21,751 bases of DNA, taken from a virus. A model generated the notes under the pieces. The model was given only the letters and a program-made list of their open reading frames with translations, had not been told where the DNA came from and made no database searches. The stretch's first letter is position 1, and each line of letters opens with the position of its first letter. Positions 2,430 through 19,722 of this stretch are shown piece after piece. The translations under genes and the position numbers were made by a program. Location of the stretch: the IMG/VR virus record IMGVR_UViG_3300027721_000088, positions 1-21,751 of that record; one strand, 5' to 3'.

Positions 2430-2885
2430 CTAATATTGTACAAAAATAGATATATCTGCCATTCCTGCAGGGTCTAATATACCCTCATCAGTTACAATAG
2501 TTGATACAGATATTTGATGTACTTTACACACATTACCTCGCTTATCAAAGTAACTTAGCTGAGAGTTTTCCTCTAATACGGTTTCTATATCTTCTATAAT
2601 TCTATCTAATGCCAGCGGAGAATTCTCTTCCTTAACATAAATTTTAATAGATACTGCTAGAAACCTATCCGCGTAACCCCCCCCTTGATACTCTCGATAT
2701 TCTGTGCCTGTAGATAGATGAACTGAGGGGTACTCTTCTATTTCATCCCAAAATTTAAGGGTAGGAAAGACCCTTTCAGATAAATTAGATAAAAACTCCC
2801 CAGTCCCATCTATTGTTTTTAAAACTTCACAAAGGGCTAAAAGTATGTCATTCCGCCTAGTTGTATATATTCTTGCCGCTTGCAT
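2430..2885 (-). CDS. tail terminator / tail completion protein (gpU-like)
   Basis: This 151-residue protein starts at an ATG with AAGGAG five bases upstream. It opens with an amphipathic helix (residues 8-24, RRNDILLALCEVLKTI) and has V-F-P-T-L and a 'YPSVHLSTGTEYREY' strand pair. The helix LDRIIEDIETVLEEN comes next, and it ends in an alternating strand. This helix-strand-helix order, the length, and the place directly before the tail-tube gene match the minor tail protein U / tail terminator group, which caps the growing tube and joins tail to head. An eight-base G run (minus strand) near 2677-2684 encodes the Gly-Gly-Gly at about residue 68-70; loss or gain of one G would bring a stop within a few codons. 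Role by order and general fold; no catalytic motif expected. Confidence 0.65.
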   Translation of the reverse strand: MQAARIYTTRRNDILLALCEVLKTIDGTGEFLSNLSERVFPTLKFWDEIEEYPSVHLSTGTEYREYQGGGYADRFLAVSIKIYVKEENSPLALDRIIEDIETVLEENSQLSYFDKRGNVCKVHQISVSTIVTDEGILDPAGMADISIFVQY

Positions 2886-2894
2886 AACTTCTCC

Positions 2895-4412
2895 TTAACT
2901 TATAGGTCTTCTAATAAGTATGTCGCCCAATCCAAGTCTAGTGAATCCTCTTTGTACCATTAAATCTTTAGCTATCTCTCTGATAGTCTCCGATATTATT
3001 CTATGAGGGTCTCTACCCTTACTATCTAAACCTCTAGTACCATATCCAGGCTCAAAAGTGCCGTACCTCTTTTTATTATAGTCATAACGTACTGAAACTC
3101 TCTTATTTACTCTAGAAAAGTTTACATCGTTGATTACTACAGATTTAGCAAAATTTGACCCATCCCTACCTTTTCCTTGTGTATTTTGATAGTTTAAAGG
3201 ATCAGTATTATTTTTTAAACTTGGAGGTCCTGGTCCTGGTCCCATCTTTTCTCGTATAGCCTCACCGCCTCTTAGACCCGCTATTAATTCTAGCATTATC
3301 TCGCCCGCCTTGGAACTTAACTGTTTACTCTTTTTACCTCTCTGCCAAGACTCTGTAGGTGGTCCAGGAGGTCTTAGGGTTTTGGACTTTTTGAAATTCT
3401 TTTTCTTACTTTTTGATTTAGTTGCTACTTTCAATTCTTTGTAAGTAACTGTAGCCCCATCTATCCCAAAAGATATTTTATTTGTAAACAACTTAGAAAG
3501 CTTATTTCTTACGCCATTTAATTCGACACCCTCAAATTTACCTTTATTTATCTCTAAAGATATAACATCATTAGTCCATACTATTAATGCTTCACGTAAT
3601 GCTTTCATATCCCAATCACGAGCCCCGGCCTCAACTACATTCATTTCATTGGTGCCTAACGTCGTATCAATTGCTCCTTTTGAACTCAGTTTAGTTCCTT
3701 TGCCACCTGGTATCCACTTAGCTGTTATGGAGCTTATAATATCGCCTGGTACCAAAGGAGTTCCGTTAGCCCCCACAAAACTAGATACAGTTGCTATTAC
3801 TGCTGAGGCCCTAGCACTAGCTATAGTAGAAACATCCATATGTAGTTGTTGCATTCTACGTCTAAATTCTTGCTCTTCTGCAGTTCCGCCGGTGTCAAGG
3901 TTAGCAGCTTCTGTAAATGCCCCCACCCTGCTTACACCATCATCATCCGGAGTTCTTGCAGTTTGATCTACCGTTCGAATAGCCGAGGCATTATATGTCT
4001 TAAGGACTTTATTATAATTAGCTATCCAATCAGTCTTCATATTCATAAATATAGGGTGGTAAGCCACTGGTTGGGTAAAAACAATTTTGTCCTTATCCGA
4101 TTGATCCATCAGTTGCGTCACTGATCCCTTTGGTCCAGAGGTAGAAGTTTCCCTTATAATTCTGGGCAAATTTTTAAATGTTTGATCTGCTATTTGCCTA
4201 AACTCCCATTCTTTTAACTGAGGCCAACGTGTTTGACCCTCGCCGCCATCTTTATTGAATATTTGTATGTATATATCCTTAGTAATCTTAAATAAAGAGT
4301 CCCTATAAACTGTAATTTTTTGATACTGGCTATTTACGAATAACTTAGTTAAATTATGACCGTACGTCTTCAATAAAGTATCTACAATATGTGTGGCTAG
4401 ATCTATAGTCAT
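2895..4412 (-). CDS. virion-associated protein of unknown function in the neck-gene position
   Basis: This 505-residue protein sits between the gp6-like connector and the tail terminator, where neck or tail-completion proteins are normally encoded. Its ATG overlaps the connector stop by one base (TAATG), implying translational coupling. Residues about 1-100 are mixed helix/strand and about 180-215 are helical (EEQEFRRRMQQLHMDVS). Residues about 335-375 are a very basic linker (KSKSKKKNFKKSK) with Pro-rich stretches (PPGPP; MGPGPGPP near 397-404). The C-terminal 90 residues (VNKRVSVRYDYNKKR to the end) look like a separate compact domain with GTFEPGYGTRGLD and the helix ISETIREIAKDLMV. It is much longer than typical head-tail adaptors, so it may be a fusion of a neck protein with an extra N-terminal region. 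I do not recognise it as a named family. Confidence 0.6.
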   Translation of the reverse strand: MTIDLATHIVDTLLKTYGHNLTKLFVNSQYQKITVYRDSLFKITKDIYIQIFNKDGGEGQTRWPQLKEWEFRQIADQTFKNLPRIIRETSTSGPKGSVTQLMDQSDKDKIVFTQPVAYHPIFMNMKTDWIANYNKVLKTYNASAIRTVDQTARTPDDDGVSRVGAFTEAANLDTGGTAEEQEFRRRMQQLHMDVSTIASARASAVIATVSSFVGANGTPLVPGDIISSITAKWIPGGKGTKLSSKGAIDTTLGTNEMNVVEAGARDWDMKALREALIVWTNDVISLEINKGKFEGVELNGVRNKLSKLFTNKISFGIDGATVTYKELKVATKSKSKKKNFKKSKTLRPPGPPTESWQRGKKSKQLSSKAGEIMLELIAGLRGGEAIREKMGPGPGPPSLKNNTDPLNYQNTQGKGRDGSNFAKSVVINDVNFSRVNKRVSVRYDYNKKRYGTFEPGYGTRGLDSKGRDPHRIISETIREIAKDLMVQRGFTRLGLGDILIRRPIS

Positions 4413-5005
4413 TATGCATACTGCTGTTTGTAATAATCTAATACACGTTTAATATGGTCAGGAAATCCGACATTACGCCACTGGCTACTAGTAGTTTCAT
4501 TAGTTATACTAGCACTCATTAAAGATTTATTAGGTTTATATTCTTCCTTAAAGTAATATTTAACCAGATCGAAGCAAGCTAGTTTTAAATCCATAGGAAT
4601 GTCTGCATATCCAGACTTATAAACTACCTTGACCGCGCCAGGCCCCATAGGCCAATCGCGGTACCCTGATATTGTAGTACGAAATAAACTATCACTTTCA
4701 GAATCTAAATAGTATTCCTGTGCGGCAGTAGTTAGCGCCACATAAGCACTACCATAGTTAATGCGTTCTTCTACAGATGTAATAGAACGTATAGGACTTT
4801 CTCCTAATTGTATATAATTTGTTGGGAATCCTATTGTGATTAATTCTGTTTTATCTGTATTGTAGTAATCTACAAAAGAGGTTCCACAGTGAGTCTTTAC
4901 TAATTGGCTTATAGCAGATATTAAAGTTTCCAGGCGCGCATCATCATCGGGCTTTTTTAGCCCTTGAGAGTTCTTATATTCTTCTAGTGTAATTAAGTTT
5001 GCCAT
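4412..5005 (-). CDS. head-tail connector protein (gp6/gp15-like)
   Basis: This 197-residue protein opens with an acidic helical region typical of portal-adjacent adaptors: LITLEEYKNSQ, then a pair of helices (ARLETLISAISQLVKTHCG). A beta segment (IQLGESPIRSITSVEER) follows, then YRDWPMGPGAVKVVYKSGYADIPMDLKLACFDLVKYYF. 'P-I-R-S-I-T-S-V' followed by 'Y-x-x-G-Y-x-x-(I/V)-P-x-x-L-(K/R)-x-A' is the signature pattern of HK97 gp6 / SPP1 gp15-like adaptors, which dock below the portal after packaging. It follows the capsid gene across a strong hairpin, and no good ribosome site is visible before its ATG, so its level is probably kept low. Confidence 0.8.
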   Translation of the reverse strand: MANLITLEEYKNSQGLKKPDDDARLETLISAISQLVKTHCGTSFVDYYNTDKTELITIGFPTNYIQLGESPIRSITSVEERINYGSAYVALTTAAQEYYLDSESDSLFRTTISGYRDWPMGPGAVKVVYKSGYADIPMDLKLACFDLVKYYFKEEYKPNKSLMSASITNETTSSQWRNVGFPDHIKRVLDYYKQQYA

Positions 5006-5024
5006 AAGCCAATTAAGAAAGACT

Positions 5025-5047
5025 TGGGGGAGAGCGAGTCTCCCCCA
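5025..5047 (-). terminator. strong hairpin after the capsid gene (terminator or attenuator)
   Basis: A perfect 9-bp stem (TGGGGGAGA with TCTCCCCCA) with the 5-base loop CTCGC lies 12 bases after the capsid stop codon. On the minus strand it is followed by AGTCTTTCTTAATT, a broken U-tract, so termination may be partial. It could also stabilise the 3' end of the capsid mRNA. The connector start lies 20 bases beyond it. Confidence 0.6.
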
Positions 5048-5059
5048 TGTTTATAGCTA

Positions 5060-6997
5060 TTATGCTACAGTACCGTATCTGATTACTACAGATGCCGGAG
5101 CAGCTGCGAACAGTTCGGTGAAGCCAAGTTGTTGCGTTGCAACAATAACTCTACGTTGATTCATAACTTCGTAGTCTTGTTCTACTTGTATGCCTTTCAG
5201 ACGTGGAATTACATAGCTTTGTCTGTGAACACAGAAAGCAAACGCCTTACCAGTAGCCCCAGTCTCAAACTCGTCAGAAACGATTACTGGAACTCCATAA
5301 ACCGCACCAACCATACCAGTGATCTTGGTAGCTAACGCACCAACTTCATGGATGTTCTCGAACTCTGGATCGTTTAGAAGCGCAAAGTACTCAGGTTGGC
5401 TAACGATGTAAGTAAGGTCAGCTGGATTCAGGCCGTATTTGCCCATAGAAGTGCGCATTTTCAATAGAAATGCTGCAGTAAGGGTACCAACAGTTGTAGG
5501 AGGGGTAATACCTGCAGCTACAGTTGCGTGAACATTAAGCGGATCGAAAGGACCAGTAGCTACTAGCAGTGCAGATTCAACGGCACGAGCGTGAGCACGA
5601 GCAACACCTTCAACTAGAACAGGCATTAAGTTAATAAGTACTTGTTCATCAGTGTTGTTGTCTAGGTATGAGCTAGAGATCAAACGCTCTACTAGCATAA
5701 TAACTTGCTTAACGTTGAACTGATTAGCCGTAACTTGTACTCTATTTTCAAGAATACCACCAGTAGCTGCGCCTGCTTGCCAGGTAGCCATATTGGTGTC
5801 AGTTTGTAATGGCATTACAGTTGATTGACCGTTAACTGGGATTTCACGGAATAGCTGTGCAACCTTAGTATAAACGGTAATTTCTTTCTGCATTTGATTT
5901 TGCAGCTCTTCGTCCAGTCTTGGAGCGTCAGCTTGGTAGTTAATACCAGCTTTTTCTAACAGTTGGGTAGCATACTGAGTATTCCAACCCTTGCCTGTCA
6001 TTTGGCCAAGCATATGAGCAGCAAGAAGTTCTTTACCACTCTTCTTAATCCACTCTTCCTTAGACTCGGTACGTCCTGAGAACGTTCCGCGTGACTTACG
6101 CATATCGTCTAACTCTTTAGCCGCAGTAGCTAGGTCAGCTTGGAATTTCGCAATTACTTGCGACATATCAGCATCCTTAACTTCTAGTTGTTTCTTAAGA
6201 TCTTCAACTAGTCTTTCTGCGCCAGTCTTTGCAGCTGCGATAGCTACTTTTTCTTCTGCCTCAGCCGCAGCTTTAGCAGCTGCCTTTGCTTGGGCTTCTT
6301 TCAGATCTTGCTGAAGTTGCATTTGCTTAGTAGCAGCTTCTGCTGCTTCTTTAGCTACTTTTTCAGTAAGGGCTTTTAGTTCTTCTGGGGTCATATCGAT
6401 CTCCATACGAGCACTTTGTGCTCCTGCCGGTGTGTGCCTAGCTATAGTAGAGGAATTTTCCTCTTTCTCAGTCGGCGACTGACCGGCTACACTATGTGTG
6501 AATGTTTTTTTATAGTCTTGATACTCTTCTTCAGAATCAAAAGACTTTGCCAATGAAAAGGTAGCTGCTTGATTGCAAGGTATCGATACCACCGATACTT
6601 CCAGCAATTCTGCATCCTTAATCATTAATCCATAAGTTTCCTCTATAAAATCGGCGTCCTTGATTAGGAAACTTACAGAAAAAGCTCCAAGTACACCTTC
6701 TTTAATTAATTTATAAGCTTTGCCAGAAGCTTTGCTTATCCATGCTGTTAACTCTAAACCTTTAGGAGTAGGGTCAATTAACTCTGCTTTACCAATAGGT
6801 TTATTGGAGTTATGGTTAAATAAGATAACTGGATTAGCTCTAAAGTTATTTAAGCCACCCTTTAACCAGGCCTCCTGGGGTATTACATCTCCTGCTCTAT
6901 CTATATCTGAAGTACTGGCGAAGCCTTTAATTCTAAGACCATCCTCTCCATCTTCCAGAGATTTGATAGAAGAAACAAGATTAAAAATCTTATTCAT
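5060..6997 (-). CDS. fused prohead protease, scaffold (delta) domain and HK97-fold major capsid protein
   Basis: The 645-residue polyprotein has three parts. Residues 1-165 match the HK97-type prohead protease (family S78): a GFAS...D-x-x-G-D opening, catalytic His in FNHN (H62), Ser in GAFSVSF (S107) and the ELLEVSVVSIP segment with E133. Residues about 202-300 are an Ala/Glu/Lys-rich coiled coil resembling the HK97 delta scaffold. Residues about 302-645 are the major capsid protein, with an extended arm, VMPLQTDTNMATW, an Ala-rich spine helix (LVEGVARAHARAVESALL) and a C-terminal YEVMNQRRVIVATQQLGF strand. The ATG at 6995-6997 overlaps the upstream stop (TAATG) with AGAGG seven bases upstream. 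Protease and capsid are more often separate genes; a second start inside (6392-6394) may restore capsid excess. Protease-capsid fusions are known in some phages. Confidence 0.93.
   Translation of the reverse strand: MNKIFNLVSSIKSLEDGEDGLRIKGFASTSDIDRAGDVIPQEAWLKGGLNNFRANPVILFNHNSNKPIGKAELIDPTPKGLELTAWISKASGKAYKLIKEGVLGAFSVSFLIKDADFIEETYGLMIKDAELLEVSVVSIPCNQAATFSLAKSFDSEEEYQDYKKTFTHSVAGQSPTEKEENSSTIARHTPAGAQSARMEIDMTPEELKALTEKVAKEAAEAATKQMQLQQDLKEAQAKAAAKAAAEAEEKVAIAAAKTGAERLVEDLKKQLEVKDADMSQVIAKFQADLATAAKELDDMRKSRGTFSGRTESKEEWIKKSGKELLAAHMLGQMTGKGWNTQYATQLLEKAGINYQADAPRLDEELQNQMQKEITVYTKVAQLFREIPVNGQSTVMPLQTDTNMATWQAGAATGGILENRVQVTANQFNVKQVIMLVERLISSSYLDNNTDEQVLINLMPVLVEGVARAHARAVESALLVATGPFDPLNVHATVAAGITPPTTVGTLTAAFLLKMRTSMGKYGLNPADLTYIVSQPEYFALLNDPEFENIHEVGALATKITGMVGAVYGVPVIVSDEFETGATGKAFAFCVHRQSYVIPRLKGIQVEQDYEVMNQRRVIVATQQLGFTELFAAAPASVVIRYGTVA
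6392..6425 (-). promoter_or_regulatory. candidate internal translation start for scaffold-capsid
   Basis: Two in-frame ATGs occur at the protease/scaffold boundary (codons 198 and 202). The second is preceded by GGAG at an ideal 6-base spacing (GGAG-ATCGAT-ATG). Just upstream, AGGAG overlaps a 6-bp hairpin (GAGCAC-AAA-GTGCTC, 6409-6423). Starting at codon 202 would give a 444-residue scaffold-capsid protein without the protease. This is inference from sequence. Confidence 0.5.
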
Positions 6998-7275
6998 TAT
7001 TTAGCCTCTACCGCTACCTTAGCGGGCTTAGCCGCTACTTTAGGGATAGCAGCTTTTGGCTTAGGATTATTGAGTTCTTCCCAGATTACTGGTTGAGCAG
7101 TCTCTATAAGTCTCATCATCCTATTCCAATTACCAAAAATATTCTTTATCTGTGAAATGCGCAAAGGTACTGGATTAGTAGCTTTATATTCCTCACAGGT
7201 GGGAATTTTCCCTATCTCCAGAAACCACATTCCCATTGTTTCTGTACATGCTAATTTTTGTCTGACTGTTGCCAT
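6997..7275 (-). CDS. small HNR-like (homing-endonuclease-associated repeat) putative DNA-binding protein
   Basis: This 92-residue protein lies between portal and protease-capsid. Its ATG has AAGGAA six bases upstream, four bases after the portal stop. Residues about 10-60 read M-W-F-L-E-I-G-K-I-PT-x-x-EY, then a short loop, then I-K-N-I-FG-N-WN-R-M-M-R-L-I-E. The spacing G-x-x-PT-x-x-x-Y ... (I)-x-x-x-FG-x-W(N/S) is that of the homing-nuclease-associated repeat, a short helical DNA-binding domain usually found beside HNH or other nucleases. Residues 70-92 are an Ala/Lys/Pro tail (KAAIPKVAAKPAKVAVEAK). No nuclease residues are present. The pairing with the HNH gene one gene upstream may be meaningful. 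The domain call rests on pattern only. Confidence 0.55.
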   Translation of the reverse strand: MATVRQKLACTETMGMWFLEIGKIPTCEEYKATNPVPLRISQIKNIFGNWNRMMRLIETAQPVIWEELNNPKPKAAIPKVAAKPAKVAVEAK

Positions 7276-7278
7276 GAT

Positions 7279-8508
7279 TTATTCCTTTTTAGGTGGCTTT
7301 GCACCTTCTTCTGGGTCTTTAGGGGGTTTTCCACCTTCTGACGGGTTAGCTGCACTACCAGCAATATTAGCGGGAATTCTTAACTCATCACTCGCAGGAT
7401 CTTTATCAGGCATATATCCTATAGCATCCCTAGCTTCATTGGGGGTTAATATCCCTGTATTAACTAATGTTGTGTAATAATTAGCTGTTTCTTGTAATTC
7501 TGGCTGCATTGCGACTATTTCTGTAGTATCTTCTTCAAGTATATAACCAAAGTATCTTTCAAATGCAAAATTAATTTTACGCACTATAGGAATTACTGTT
7601 TCTAAGTAGTACATCCTCATATTTGGTGCTAAATTAGCATTATTACCAGAATCTAATAATACTGGTGGAATTCCTAAAGCCTTTAGAATGATTTTCTCAT
7701 TATCTGCAATAGAATTTTGAAAATCTAAGTCTTTAAAGTTTACATCAGAAATAGTATCTATTTCTAATCCACCGTCTAATATAAGGGGGCGTCTGCCACC
7801 TGTATTAGGATTATACTTCTGACTCCAGGCCGCTAACATTCTAGCTTTAATTTTTTCTGATAAAGTGTTAGGACTTTTAATTATAAGGCCTGGTACTGCT
7901 CCATTTTCAAAGAAATTATCCTGAAAATTACGCATAGATAGCATTAATTTCATAGTACGTAATGCAGGTTTAAGTCTAGAAACACCTCTATATATATCTC
8001 TAAGGGAGTTTTCTTTTATATGAATTATTTCCTTAGGACTATAGGTGTCTTTTCCTTGATATACGAATTCTTTTATATATGTTATTTTATCAGATACAAT
8101 CTGCATATTTGCTGCTGGCATATGATACATATAAGAACCATCAAAATATATAAATATATTGCCATCTAGTAAATAATCAATAATTAAGTTGCGTTTAAAT
8201 GTATTTATATCTTGATACAAATTGGGTTCATGATTAAGTAACTTAGTTAACTTTTTAACTTGTACTCCTGAAATAACACTAAGACCAGGAGACTGTTTGC
8301 TTACTACTGTAGGTATCTCCGCTGTATCATCTACAATCATGTTAACCCCACGATTAACAATTTCTAATTCTTCATACATTTTAGTATAAGAAAAAGTGGC
8401 TTCCGTACTAGAGTACGAATTACCACCACTTATACTAGGCTGAGAAGGATTTAACTTCTCTACGCGTTTTTGTGCTGCGCTATCTAAAATTCTATTATAC
8501 CAAGCCAT
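7279..8508 (-). CDS. portal protein (HK97 family)
   Basis: The protein matches the HK97-type portal, the 12-subunit ring at the packaging vertex. Features are an N-terminal helix (MAWYNRILDSAAQKR), ELEIVNRGVNMIVDDTAEIP, NLIIDYLLDGNIFIYF, a crown/stem region with RDIYRGVSRLKPALRTM, and SMRNFQDNFFENGAVPGLII. These are followed by IADNEKIILKALGIPPVLL and NLAPNMRMYYLETVIPIVRKI, the signature Asn...Met-Arg...Val-Ile-Pro segment. The tail is Pro/Lys-rich (EGGKPPKDPEEGAKPPKKE). I chose the ATG at 8506-8508 (409 residues), with AAAGAG upstream, over a TTG seven codons earlier that lacks a better site. It overlaps the HNH stop by 14 bases. It is not next to large terminase, as is more usual, but 7.8 kb away. 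Confidence 0.92.
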   Translation of the reverse strand: MAWYNRILDSAAQKRVEKLNPSQPSISGGNSYSSTEATFSYTKMYEELEIVNRGVNMIVDDTAEIPTVVSKQSPGLSVISGVQVKKLTKLLNHEPNLYQDINTFKRNLIIDYLLDGNIFIYFDGSYMYHMPAANMQIVSDKITYIKEFVYQGKDTYSPKEIIHIKENSLRDIYRGVSRLKPALRTMKLMLSMRNFQDNFFENGAVPGLIIKSPNTLSEKIKARMLAAWSQKYNPNTGGRRPLILDGGLEIDTISDVNFKDLDFQNSIADNEKIILKALGIPPVLLDSGNNANLAPNMRMYYLETVIPIVRKINFAFERYFGYILEEDTTEIVAMQPELQETANYYTTLVNTGILTPNEARDAIGYMPDKDPASDELRIPANIAGSAANPSEGGKPPKDPEEGAKPPKKE

Positions 8509-8869
8509 TTTTTGCTCTTTGGATCTCAACCCACTTTATCTGTTTTTTAGCGGTGCCGAGAGCTGGATTTTTACCATAAACAGAATGAAGCTGTAAATGG
8601 TGGTCGTGGCATAGCGTTACTGCATGCTCATACAGTTCAGGCATATGTTCCTCGATGAACCTATCACGAAACTCCAAAACGTCTTCTGGCTTCAATCTAT
8701 TTAATTTCATCCAATGATGAAGTAAAGGACTTAAACTATAATGATGGTGAAAGTCTAACTTCTCCGTGGAACCGCAAATACGGCATTCAGTACCTTTCTC
8801 GTACCTGGCCTTTGCTCGATCTCGTATAAATTTGACCGTATCTCTTTGGTTTTTATATTCTACAGCCAT
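8495..8869 (-). CDS. HNH endonuclease
   Basis: This 124-residue protein has a zinc-knuckle Cys pair (C29-x-x-C32), the HHH at 41-43 holding the first catalytic His, and the second metal half VTLCHDHHLQLHSVYG (C87-x-x-H90, then H91 and H95). The order CxxC...DxHHH...LCxxHH is the HNH nuclease fold. The inserted segment (about 45-82) is helical and charged. The start has GAGG six bases upstream and lies about 22 bases after a predicted transcription start. Many HK97-type phages have an HNH protein beside the terminase that aids cos cleavage; here it leads the portal-capsid unit instead. It could be a packaging factor or a free-standing homing nuclease; sequence does not decide. Confidence 0.85.
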   Translation of the reverse strand: MAVEYKNQRDTVKFIRDRAKARYEKGTECRICGSTEKLDFHHHYSLSPLLHHWMKLNRLKPEDVLEFRDRFIEEHMPELYEHAVTLCHDHHLQLHSVYGKNPALGTAKKQIKWVEIQRAKNGLV

Positions 8870-16259: not shown

Positions 16260-17573
16260 CTAAAACTCCATCATAGCAGTTTCAAAGCTATAAAGTCCAT
16301 ACCTCATGGCGTCTGCCATATGTGATGCTCTATTATGCTTTGGCTTTTCTTTTATTAAGTTGGGATTAGGATCCCATTGATATTGGTCTAAAGAGGTCAG
16401 GCATTCTTTAGCTCTTTGGTCTACAAACAGCTTATTATTATCTACTATAGCCTCTACATAGCCAATACCATCTAGTAGGGACTTTTTAGCATTGATTGTA
16501 GATATTCCATACAACTGAGCCAAGTCAAAACGAGTTTGCTGCGCTGCAGAATCCATATAGATATAATCTATATCGTACTTATCTATTAATCTTTGAATTC
16601 TTTCTGCCTGGTGTTCTGTAGTCATTTCTGAGTCCATGAACTCTTCCATCAGGTAAAATTTCTCTTCCTTCCAGAAATATGCAAAAACACAGAAAGCTGT
16701 GGCGTCCCTGAATCCAATGTCTAGTCCGGCAAATACATCTATATTTGCGCGGTCTGATAGATCTAATTCCTGACAGTTCGTTACACAGTTTTCAAAGTCG
16801 AATTTCCAAACTTGACCTTCGTACTGATTAAAATCTGCCATATACTCTTGAGCAAATTCTGCGACTGACATAGATTTACGTGCTTCGTCTATGTCATTAT
16901 CCGACATACGAGGATTTTCCTTGTAGTCAGCTGTGATTGAAGCCCATTCTGGGAATTCATCAGTCCAACCCCTATCGTAAAACTCGGCGAACCAATTATT
17001 ACGTCCACGAGGGGTGGATATAAACAACGCTTTTGAATTTGGTCGATCTAATGTAGGGCGTAACGCTACATTATATGCTTCCTTACCATCTACTAGAGCC
17101 GCTTCGTCAAAAATAATGAAGTCGTATGAACGCCCTACAGAAGATTCAACTATACCTACCGAACCCATCCTAATAGTAGAACCATTAGAAAGTTCGATAA
17201 TCTTGTCTTTAGCGTTATCTCTAGTAACTTCTAGGTCGAAGTGCCTAATCAATGAACGCTGTAAATCAAACGAAATTTGTGATAATTGGTAGTTGGGTGA
17301 CATAATAAGAATATTACACCCGGGCACTAATGAGACAAGTTGGCCGCATATGTTTGCAACATACGTTTTGCCAAGCCTTCTCGAGACCGCTGCTACTATA
17401 AACCTATACTTAGGATTGTTCAAAGCATTTATAATACCCCACTGGGGTCTTAAAGGTGTAACCCCCAATAACTCTAAGTATGGGGGTACGGGAATTTTTA
17501 GAAATCTAGTATCCGCAGGAAATTCTTGATAACCATCAACAAGTATATCAGCTCTACTAACTCTTAAGGACAT
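16260..17573 (-). CDS. terL: terminase large subunit (packaging ATPase and nuclease)
   Basis: The 437-residue protein drives DNA into the prohead and cuts it. ATPase: Walker A variant AVSRRLGKT (62-70), adenine-binding-type Gln near the RPQW motif (42-45), Walker B IIFDEAA (153-159) and coupling motif LFISTPRG (183-190). Nuclease (RNase H fold): first Asp in GLDIGFRD (D285), second in YMDSAAQQ (D341) and third in HMADAMRY (D421). All three acidic positions are intact, so it is probably active. The ATG overlaps the stop of the preceding gene by one base (TAATG). It closes the packaging operon and is followed by the appendage promoter. Length fits the family. Confidence 0.95.
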   Translation of the reverse strand: MSLRVSRADILVDGYQEFPADTRFLKIPVPPYLELLGVTPLRPQWGIINALNNPKYRFIVAAVSRRLGKTYVANICGQLVSLVPGCNILIMSPNYQLSQISFDLQRSLIRHFDLEVTRDNAKDKIIELSNGSTIRMGSVGIVESSVGRSYDFIIFDEAALVDGKEAYNVALRPTLDRPNSKALFISTPRGRNNWFAEFYDRGWTDEFPEWASITADYKENPRMSDNDIDEARKSMSVAEFAQEYMADFNQYEGQVWKFDFENCVTNCQELDLSDRANIDVFAGLDIGFRDATAFCVFAYFWKEEKFYLMEEFMDSEMTTEHQAERIQRLIDKYDIDYIYMDSAAQQTRFDLAQLYGISTINAKKSLLDGIGYVEAIVDNNKLFVDQRAKECLTSLDQYQWDPNPNLIKEKPKHNRASHMADAMRYGLYSFETAMMEF

Positions 17574-18115
17574 TAGATAGAGCCTGAAGTCTCAATTTCT
17601 ACTGCTAATGGCGGTGGTGCAGGGAATCCAGTTACAGCATATCCAGCACCATTTGGGGTATACCCAGTACCCGGTGTAGTTATCGACGCACCCGAGATAG
17701 CATTAGATACAACGTTATATGTAATTACAGCATTATTATTTCCACCAGGTATAGTATAAGTGAAACCAGTACCATTTAAATACCCCTTACCAGCTGCACT
17801 AGTTACTAAAGTACCGCACGCACCCGTTGTCACTGTACAAGTGAACGTTGCTTGAGTCCTACTAACCATAGTCATAGTGGTTGCATAACTTCCTGGATGT
17901 GGCAAAGATACAGTATTAACTGTTGGGCTTAGAGTAACTGCGGGAAGTACAGATTCGTATACTCCATTTATCTCTGTCCATAAAGTTACACTATCGCCTG
18001 TTTGTAAGTTTCCAGCTCTAAGAGCTGGTGTACCATATTCGAAATCATCGTTACCTAATCTAAACTTTTGTTTAGTGGCATTGGTAACTAAAGATGTTAC
18101 TAATACTTGACTCAT
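17573..18115 (-). CDS. beta-rich structural-type protein with GTGY module
   Basis: This 180-residue protein starts by ATGA overlap with the gene before it. Residues 1-85 are beta-rich (KFRLGNDDFEYGTPALRAG, GDSVTLWTEINGVYESV). Residues about 88-160 carry the module GKGY-x-NG-x-G-x-TY-x-IPGG-x-NN...TTPGTGYT. This matches residues 139-219 of the major tail protein in order and spacing. It is not an enzyme by any motif I see. Because the module is shared with a tail-tube protein, this is probably a virion or decoration protein despite its place just before large terminase. Confidence 0.65.
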   Translation of the reverse strand: MSQVLVTSLVTNATKQKFRLGNDDFEYGTPALRAGNLQTGDSVTLWTEINGVYESVLPAVTLSPTVNTVSLPHPGSYATTMTMVSRTQATFTCTVTTGACGTLVTSAAGKGYLNGTGFTYTIPGGNNNAVITYNVVSNAISGASITTPGTGYTPNGAGYAVTGFPAPPPLAVEIETSGSI

Positions 18116-18372
18116 GTGGTTAGTCCTCTAAGAATTAGAGTGTCTGAAGTAACTTCACCATCCCAATTCACTATGGTACACCCTGTAGTACTAGGGGTAT
18201 CCCAATTTTGTTGTTGTGCTGGCAAGTACCAATTAGGTGCATGCCACCGGTTTATAAATAAGTTATTTCCGATACCAAATGTATCGTTTAAAATTTCTTG
18301 TAATTCTTTGGCTTGCTCTAAGGTAAGCTTTATCTTTTTTCCGTCTAATTCTATTATTAATTTGCTAATCAT
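18112..18372 (-). CDS. small phage protein of unknown function
   Basis: This 86-residue protein starts by ATGA overlap with the upstream membrane-protein gene. The N-terminal half (KLIIELDGKKIKLTLEQAKELQEILNDTFG) looks like a strand-hairpin followed by a helix, a pattern found in small phage proteins of uncertain role. The C-terminal half is rich in Trp and Asn/Gln (HAPNWYLPAQQQNW, IVNWDGEV). No membrane or metal-binding motif is seen. It is coupled in the packaging operon. Confidence 0.6.
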   Translation of the reverse strand: MISKLIIELDGKKIKLTLEQAKELQEILNDTFGIGNNLFINRWHAPNWYLPAQQQNWDTPSTTGCTIVNWDGEVTSDTLILRGLTT

Positions 18373-18623
18373 TTTTTCTCATACCTAATTTCCGCGGGTG
18401 TGTCATAACTACGTCCAGAGTTATTATACATTCCGAACCAGGCAGCACCCGCTCCTATAATAACGCTTACTATACCTGCTTGTTCTACAGATACAGTAGG
18501 TAACCCCATAGCCCACATAGCAATATAAAAACAAAGCCAGATATAAGCACCAAAGAAAATCCTAGGAAATATTCTATAGGCATCTATAATTTCTGCTCCA
18601 TCTATCCAAGCTTGTTTATTCAT
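18369..18623 (-). CDS. two-helix membrane protein, holin-like
   Basis: This 84-residue protein has two hydrophobic segments, about 20-40 (FFGAYIWLCFYIAMWAMGL) and 47-65 (AGIVSVIIGAGAAWFGMY). A short loop separates them, and the hydrophilic tail is NNSGRSYDTPAEIRYEKK. The pattern GAGAAWFG-(L/M)-Y-x-x-(S/T)-G is common in small phage membrane proteins often labelled putative holins. The start overlaps the PAS gene stop by eight bases. Size and two TM helices fit a class II-like holin or a partner of the PAS protein, but no endolysin is in view, so the lysis role is inference. Confidence 0.65.
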   Translation of the reverse strand: MNKQAWIDGAEIIDAYRIFPRIFFGAYIWLCFYIAMWAMGLPTVSVEQAGIVSVIIGAGAAWFGMYNNSGRSYDTPAEIRYEKK

Positions 18624-19248
18624 GAGAATGACTCATTGCCTTAACACCAACTTTACATAAGTTTACGTGTGGACATACTGGATCGCCATCATGAGGAATT
18701 ATCACACCTAAATAACCTAAAACTTTTCCCCTGGAACTTATCTCTCTATATACATGAGAGTGAGCCCAGAAATCTTTTCCATCTGATGTAATATAGTGAA
18801 TGTCCTCGCTAAACTCTATTTGAGAGTTTATGGCGTTTTGCCACTTTTCTATTATTTTGTCTCTATTATCTGGGTGCACTACATTTATCCATCCATCACC
18901 TTCTACTTCTTGTAAGCTCACGCCAAGCAATTTTTGATAGTGTCTATTAATTGCTGTTAGTTTGCCTTTTGCATCAGTACGTAATATAGCTAGTTTTTGT
19001 AGATTCATCTGAGCAGTTAAGTAAGCTTCAAATCCTGCTTGCTTAGCCTCTATTCGATCTATAACGTCCCTTATAGAACTACCCCCATTGGGGCGCAACT
19101 CAGCTTCTATTCTATCTAATTGGACGCCTCTGCGTCCGAACGTTTTGTCCCATAACCACGCTAAATAATTACGTACTTGTTTGAATGCCAAACTTGCAGC
19201 TGAAATTAAAGTGCATAAGACTATCCACTCTTCCATTGTAGTTAGCAT
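18616..19248 (-). CDS. membrane-anchored PAS-domain protein
   Basis: Residues about 8-24 form a single hydrophobic anchor (WIVLCTLISAASLAF). Residues 40-82 are a charged helical linker with NGGSSIRDVIDRIEAK, a motif I associate with phage membrane proteins near lysis genes. Residues 84-184 are a PAS domain: ILRTDAKGKLTAINRHYQKLLG, the GWINVVHPDNRDKI helix, and YLGVI at the end. The C-terminus is Cys/His-rich (C192, H194, C198, H207, H209). No histidine kinase, GGDEF or HTH output is attached. PAS domains bind ligands or cofactors and mediate dimerisation. GAGGG a few bases upstream supports the ATG at 19248. Small phage PAS proteins are known but uncharacterised to my knowledge. Confidence 0.8.
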   Translation of the reverse strand: MLTTMEEWIVLCTLISAASLAFKQVRNYLAWLWDKTFGRRGVQLDRIEAELRPNGGSSIRDVIDRIEAKQAGFEAYLTAQMNLQKLAILRTDAKGKLTAINRHYQKLLGVSLQEVEGDGWINVVHPDNRDKIIEKWQNAINSQIEFSEDIHYITSDGKDFWAHSHVYREISSRGKVLGYLGVIIPHDGDPVCPHVNLCKVGVKAMSHSHE

Positions 19249-19254
19249 ATGCCC

Positions 19255-19722
19255 TCACTGTATGACTTTTCCATATATAGTTTCCAGAAGCTTACCATAA
19301 TTCCCTTGACCCCACGGATTAGCTCCACTATCATTAATCTGGACATTAGTCTGATTTTTAATATTAGTAGAATTCTTCTCCGCCTCACCCAATGCCTTGA
19401 TTTCCTCCATGCGCATTTTGTGAGCCATCATTAATAGATCGGCCAAATCTTTATTAGTATATATCCCGCTTTCTTGTGCTTCTTCTAGTTTTGAAGCGAT
19501 CATTTCATCAAGTAAACTACCTAGTGTATTCCTATTACGGTAGCCAGTGTCTAAATAGACTGTATCTATGTATTTCTTAACGCTTCGGGTGTTTAGCACC
19601 TCTGATACTTTATATTCTTGTACGCCTAGACATTGGGCAACACCTTTGATGTTCCCCAATGTCAAATAACAATTAGCTATCTCCATCCCTTCTGGAGAAA
19701 TTAAAGTCAACTCCTTACTCAT
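19255..19722 (-). CDS. terminase small subunit (putative)
   Basis: This 155-residue protein begins with a helix-turn-helix (SPEGMEIANCYLTLGNIKG-VAQCLGVQEYKVSEVLN, residues about 9-44), as expected for the DNA-recognition part. A long helical region follows (LGSLLDEMIASKLEEAQE, LADLLMMAHKMRMEEIKAL, about 66-112), typical of oligomerisation. The polar C-terminal tail (NQTNVQINDSGANPWGQGNYGK) may contact the large subunit. It is in the expected size range and in the same operon as the large subunit. The ATG lies six bases after a TATAAT box, so the transcript from this promoter would be leaderless. The family is assigned from architecture and context; a general HTH regulator is the alternative. 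Confidence 0.75.
   Translation of the reverse strand: MSKELTLISPEGMEIANCYLTLGNIKGVAQCLGVQEYKVSEVLNTRSVKKYIDTVYLDTGYRNRNTLGSLLDEMIASKLEEAQESGIYTNKDLADLLMMAHKMRMEEIKALGEAEKNSTNIKNQTNVQINDSGANPWGQGNYGKLLETIYGKVIQ

Follow-up and report, generated by a model that had tools for sequence, protein, structure and literature searches.

A membrane-anchored PAS protein encoded beside a holin-like protein in an uncultured marine phage, and its probable place in lysis cassettes

The window, meaning here the whole 21.7-kb stretch of DNA that was analysed, comes from an uncultured marine phage and carries on its minus strand the gene order TerS-PAS-2TM-86-180-TerL. The terminase small subunit gene (TerS, 19255..19722; phrog_3802, 2.4e-35) lies 6 bp upstream of the gene for a 210-aa protein that combines a transmembrane (TM) helix, an NGGSS motif and a PAS domain (18616..19248; identified by Pfam PAS_3, phrog_9869, AlphaFold and positive-inside topology). 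The stop of this gene overlaps the start of the next by 8 bp (ATGAATAA, 18616..18623, minus strand), the latter encoding an 84-aa two-TM holin-like protein (18369..18623; phrog_10198, 3.4e-17, with homologues in other phages and an AlphaFold model). Further downstream on the same strand are an 86-aa protein without Pfam or PHROG match (18112..18372), whose gene overlaps the two-TM gene by 4 bp, and a 180-aa structural-like protein (17573..18115; phrog_438, 2.8e-5, and weak baseplate/tail matches), whose ORF overlaps the 86-aa ORF by 4 bp and abuts the terminase large subunit gene (TerL, 16260..17573; PF03237, 1e-15, and PF17289, 1.7e-6). Judging from this arrangement, the genes from TerS to TerL probably form a tight, translationally coupled operon, and translational coupling of the PAS and two-TM genes through their 8-bp overlap is likely.

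A preliminary description of this DNA had placed the pair between the small and large terminase genes and had noted the eight-base overlap. The overlap is confirmed and the coordinates are right, but the pair is not directly beside TerL since the 86-aa and 180-aa ORFs lie in between. No homologue of the 86-aa protein was found among 80 TerL relatives. We also agree that no endolysin is visible: none was recognised in the window, itself a 21.7-kb fragment. Elsewhere, positions 2430-8529 encode a portal, an S78 protease (645 aa, the capsid probably being fused to it), a T5 p143-like protein and a tail tube terminator, a set of head and tail genes that resembles those of T5-like siphoviruses.

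The 210-aa protein is divided into a single N-terminal TM helix (about residues 9-25), a coil with an RPNGGSSIRD hinge (52-61), the PAS domain (86-186) and a tail (187-210). In the AlphaFold model, which was built from 30 relatives, a helix spans residues 5-51, breaks at RPNGG, resumes over 57-83 and leads into the PAS domain; overall pLDDT is 86.9, and about 97 for the PAS part. All nine canonical PAS elements (Ab-Bb-Ca-Da-Ea-Fa-Gb-Hb-Ib) are found within residues 87-185 at pLDDT 96-98, including the five-stranded antiparallel sheet and the Ca-Fa helices. Pfam returns PAS_3 (PF08447) at E=3.3e-12, with 46.9 bits vs a cut-off of 25.6, and PAS (PF00989) at E=3.3e-7, again above the Pfam cut-off, while the top Foldseek matches in the PDB are PAS/LOV domains with E down to 8.5e-9. 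No output domain follows the PAS domain in the 210-aa protein. The single-pass anchor, NGGSS linker and full PAS domain lacking an output domain, as first read from the sequence, are thus borne out by Pfam, AlphaFold and Foldseek, and the PAS fold is confirmed in the predicted structure. By the positive-inside rule, the window protein is predicted to be N-out/C-in.

Less remains of the Cys/His-rich tail to which the same description had drawn attention. The residues exist, spanning positions 190-209, but the tail is modelled at a pLDDT of about 56 and nothing in the rest of the 30-sequence alignment corresponds to it. In L008, the nearest relative (45% identical over the PAS protein), the sequence stops soon after PAS and lacks all of the tail Cys/His residues. 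The tail should therefore carry no weight; we rejected it as a zinc or redox site, and redox sensing through it is not supported.

With respect to what the PAS domain might sense, a single-sequence search of the PDB with the window PAS ranks first the PAS domain of Aer (8dik, E=6.7e-4), a protein that monitors respiration through FAD. Aer contacts FAD with H53, N85 and R115 (PMC9668731), none of which is kept in the window PAS, where the aligned residues are W120, Y152 and I183. FAD binding in the Aer/NifL/MmoS group is reported to depend mainly on a tryptophan in Fa (PMC10468136), and in a pairwise alignment W136 of the window sits one position off the corresponding Aer residue, W70. An Aer-like FAD redox sensor was rejected despite the best PDB match, given that the flavin contacts are not conserved; unlike Aer, NifL and MmoS, the phage proteins also lack an output domain. 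A LOV photoreceptor was rejected as well: GDGWINVVHP stands where LOV domains have GxNCRFLQ, the flavin-adduct Cys of that motif is missing and the PAS core of the window protein has no Cys. No known ligand-contact set is conserved, and no cofactor is assignable from the residues of the window PAS.

PAS-bearing relatives were obtained by a search with a six-sequence alignment followed by ORF extraction, which yielded 41 loci. Thirty non-identical representatives, window included and all collected via the NGGSS motif, were aligned; they come from diverse uncultured phages, and 24 match PAS_3 at E<=0.01. Across the 30 sequences, a set collected by that very motif, no substitution occurs in PNGG, in the motif's S, R and D or at W120, and W136 is nearly invariant. 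Lys and Arg are richer after the TM helix than before it in every one of the 30, hence the PAS domain is predicted to be cytoplasmic (N-out/C-in) throughout. For pairs close enough to measure, dN/dS of the PAS part is about 0.01-0.15, and where testable this part is under purifying selection.

Single-sequence scans of IMG/VR for close relatives and a two-sequence genome scan were both negative, and a six-sequence genome scan yielded a single MAG contig with a PAS-bearing protein (L288). Queried by tblastn with the PAS proteins of the window, L008, L211, L231 and L213, phage isolates showed no relative that carries PAS. Within BFVD, two proteins of uncultured phages named only "PAS domain" (A0A6J5NY05 and A0A6J5QVN9) match the model over most of their own length. 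Foldseek alone also matched the model to two proteins of cultured phages, gp108 of Cellulophaga phage phi19:1 (L295:5703-6425) and gp090 of phi18:3 (L294:39102-39620), both near lysozyme/endolysin genes and possibly tractable analogues. Neither has a Pfam match and the profile comparison for gp108 was negative, so we keep both as leads only.

At least six PAS-bearing members sit in recognisable lysis cassettes, with the lysis genes of several loci assigned by eye. The arrangements differ: PAS-M15 endolysin-2TM-Rz-Rz1 (L209), CHAP endolysin-Rz-Rz1-PAS (L211), Rz-HNH-Rz1-PAS (L217), lysozyme-like-amidase-PAS (L212), CHAP endolysin-PAS-2TM with a two-TM protein that is Hol44-like at 0.0015, below the cut-off (L094), and PAS-2TM-lipoproteins-PG-binding endolysin (L179 and relatives). 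Pfam lysis families account for 7 of 102 ORFs near the PAS genes vs 0 of 79 ORFs 2.5-3.4 kb away (p=0.02, on small numbers). At other loci the surroundings are of another kind. PAS adjoins terminase genes in the window, L008, L177 and L214; no lysis gene is in view near PAS at many loci, L229, L231, L232, L234 and L238 among them; and in L210, L238 and L243 the genes around PAS are replication-, methyltransferase- or glycosyltransferase-like. These mixed contexts indicate that the association with lysis is strong in part of the family, not universal. Adjacency of a PAS and a two-TM gene, which the preliminary description had expected in related phages, does recur: in L008 with a homologous two-TM protein, and in L094 and L179/L224 with unrelated small two-TM proteins.

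The first half of the window PAS protein (TM, coil and PNGGSSIRD) corresponds to the phrog_9869 scaffold, which residues 43-69 match at 4.9e-7. A pattern scan of IMG/VR found 109 TM-NGGSS proteins, most of them 64-130 aa long, with one N-terminal TM helix, nothing beyond the coil and no PAS domain; the scaffold, usually PAS-less, is a widespread phage protein. Among the immediate neighbours of 53 non-redundant scaffold proteins are CHAP, NlpC/P60, M15, GH25, amidase and r1t-holin genes. Cultured phages offer PAS-less examples that share with the window protein the N-terminal TM helix, the coil and the (P)N(G/S)GSS(L/I)RD motif, and that lie beside a holin or endolysin gene. In Streptomyces phage mu1/6 the gene for gp52 is located downstream of the endolysin gene and overlaps that of the holin, Thermobifida phage P1312_040 (L207:4716-5159) overlaps the amidase gene that it immediately precedes, and in Arthrobacter phage Sonali the overlap is between gp22 and the gene for lysin A. 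Glutamicibacter phage BIM BV-113 has a scaffold protein in an unannotated context. P1312_040 is labelled "sensory protein kinase CreC", a name that looks wrong for a TM-NGGSS scaffold protein.

The 84-aa partner is modelled by AlphaFold as three helices (3-15, 18-39 and 46-72), the latter two being the TM helices. It has no Pfam match, and hence none to the Pfam holin families, and phrog_10198 carries no function label. In Puniceispirillum phage HMO-2011 the gene of a homologue (phrog_10198, 2.6e-12) shares 4 bp with the lysozyme gene, not far from TerL, and homologues precede TerL in L008, L029, L046 and others. By eye, the family directly follows XhlA-like coil+TM genes (L303, L311, L313, L334 and L335), lysozyme-like genes (L304 and L327), a SleB-like hydrolase (L370) and o-spanin-like lipoproteins (L356, L361 and L371). 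The XhlA-like gene of the first five loci holds the position that the PAS protein has in the window. Also by eye, T4-like phages have members of the family within their tail genes, with no adjacent endolysin there, so not every member has to be a holin. For the window protein, a holin role is likely.

The interval between TerS and TerL was compared across 80 IMG/VR contigs whose TerL is about 69-74% identical to that of the window, and it proved to be a variable accessory region. L008 retains TerS-PAS-2TM-TerL, and the window two-TM family stands just upstream of TerL in 11 loci, L008 included. In 50 of 79 TerL relatives the place is taken instead by a two-TM protein of ~105 aa, with an EF-hand loop in 47 of the 50 (L009-L083; e.g. 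L080:3617-3943), possibly a calcium-binding holin-like protein. In the 62 contigs that extend at least 1.2 kb upstream of TerL, the EF-hand form is present in 46 and the window form in 11, while five have neither and none has both, i.e., exactly one form is present at 57 loci. The hypergeometric chance of zero co-occurrence is about 1e-8 when relatedness is ignored, and the two forms look like functional alternatives. Since hhalign detected no homology between them, we treat the EF-hand protein as an analogous replacement.

At the other end of the interval, 25 loci carry a coil protein with a C-terminal TM helix, usually as the first gene past TerS, where the window has its PAS gene. A copy in L029 matches XhlA weakly (0.0045) and is followed directly by a cell-wall hydrolase (PF07486, 9e-23), and at this position in L068 another protein matches at 1.6e-7. 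The slot also holds, at L042:1275-1697 and in 26 further loci, a transglutaminase-like cysteine peptidase (Peptidase_C93, 7e-5, below the cut-off), which could be an unrecognised lysis enzyme. The terminase neighbourhood of the window pair is better explained by a slot for lysis and accessory genes than by packaging.

The nearest functional precedent is the LysF1a/LysF1b pair of the F1 mycobacteriophages Girr and NormanBulbieJr, where LysF1a has two TM helices (N-in/C-in) and LysF1b one (N-out/C-in), deletion of either shifts the time of lysis and efficient lysis requires the two together (PMC13056207). The likeness is one of topology, not sequence: neighbouring, overlapping genes encode a two-TM protein of some 80-88 aa and a one-TM protein whose cytoplasmic part is helical, with the same predicted topologies. 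LysF1b differs in having a charged helix and no PAS domain, and the order is two-TM then one-TM in F1 and the reverse in the window. A one-TM protein of the LysF1b type would be expected to be required for timely lysis and to be triggered by energy poisons. The XhlA/XhlB holin pair (PF10779) likewise sets a coiled-coil one-TM protein beside a small holin-like protein, and XhlA-like proteins take the post-TerS position in sister phages, while in other phages they stand just before the two-TM family of the window. Their TM helix is C-terminal, whereas the window protein has an N-terminal one and a PAS domain, and does not match PF10779 at E<=0.1. Phage Mu releasin is a further one-TM lysis protein of similar structure/topology class (PMC13056207); it has no PAS domain and acts on a SAR endolysin.

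From the LysF1a/LysF1b precedent, the matching topologies and the overlapping genes, we propose a holin-accessory protein with PAS-tuned triggering. That the PAS protein belongs to lysis cassettes is probable from gene context. That it is a one-TM lysis-cassette protein which acquired a cytoplasmic PAS domain and tunes the adjacent holin-like protein we put at about even, and likewise with a regulatory role for the PAS domain, whereas genuine sensing of a ligand or redox state that determines when lysis occurs is a more tentative suggestion, its chances somewhat short of even. The PAS protein would be co-translated with the two-TM protein and would probably act on it. Within the inner membrane, the TM helix and coil may form dimers or bind the holin-like protein, and the PAS domain, tethered beneath the membrane behind the Gly-Gly hinge, would bind a ligand or cofactor or read the metabolic state. 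A conformational change in PAS could then alter the coil and advance or delay holin triggering, by which lysis time would be tied to host physiology. Ligand binding, holin contact and the effect on timing are what we infer.

A lysis-cassette accessory does not require sensing, and the PAS domain could bind no ligand and serve only for dimerisation, setting the oligomeric state of the TM-coil scaffold. Most scaffold relatives apparently work without PAS, PAS domains are often dimerisation modules (PMC8694187) and none of the Aer cofactor-contact residues is conserved in the window. On the other hand, a short coiled coil would do for that purpose, as it apparently does in PAS-less members, and dimerisation alone sits poorly with a full PAS core, an invariant W120, a near-invariant W136 and purifying selection; we regard this reading as unlikely. 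Also to be weighed is a host-derived sensor fragment, occupying a late, permissive accessory slot and acting as a decoy or heterodimer on host PAS signalling or reprogramming host physiology. PAS_3 is a type known from bacterial sensor proteins, several PAS-bearing members lie outside lysis cassettes and the TerS-TerL gap of the relatives is hypervariable. Yet PAS is always found on the phage-specific NGGSS scaffold (in a search keyed on that motif) and PAS-less forms occur in lysis cassettes, while the predicted late co-expression with structural genes would be a poor moment for host takeover, all of which makes this explanation distinctly improbable.

The preliminary description had proposed control of pore formation or of the timing of packaging and lysis. 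A role of the pair in DNA packaging or head assembly could draw on the four loci where PAS stands beside terminase genes, but most other PAS loci have no terminase nearby and the same gap in relatives holds XhlA-like, SleB endolysin, lipoprotein, EF-hand two-TM and other accessory genes. On this gene context we rejected the packaging role, whose probability we consider very small, the TerS-TerL interval being an accessory slot. The lysis half of the proposal is supported by the lysis cassettes of relatives and by the two-TM family abutting the HMO-2011 lysozyme gene.

The TM-NGGSS-PAS architecture is real and recurrent and, within the searchable scope, apparently undescribed: among open-access papers we found nothing relevant on a phage PAS lysis protein. 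Its separate parts are of known kinds; what seems to have gone undescribed is the way they are combined and the repeated appearance of this combination in lysis cassettes. The usual picture of lysis timing is an internal holin clock, outside signals being known chiefly from T-even lysis inhibition and from collapse of the membrane potential. Our reading of a one-component sensor, in which membrane-tethered cytoplasmic PAS domains are widespread phage lysis regulators and give the host's metabolite, redox or energy state direct control of holin triggering, is offered tentatively. If true, the EF-hand two-TM proteins of sister phages would be a calcium-dependent counterpart, and the recurring proteins of uncultured phages annotated only as "PAS domain" would gain a function. 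Phages could then read host physiology in choosing the moment of lysis via a dedicated intracellular sensor domain, and a plastic, sensed lysis time would become a directly testable question.
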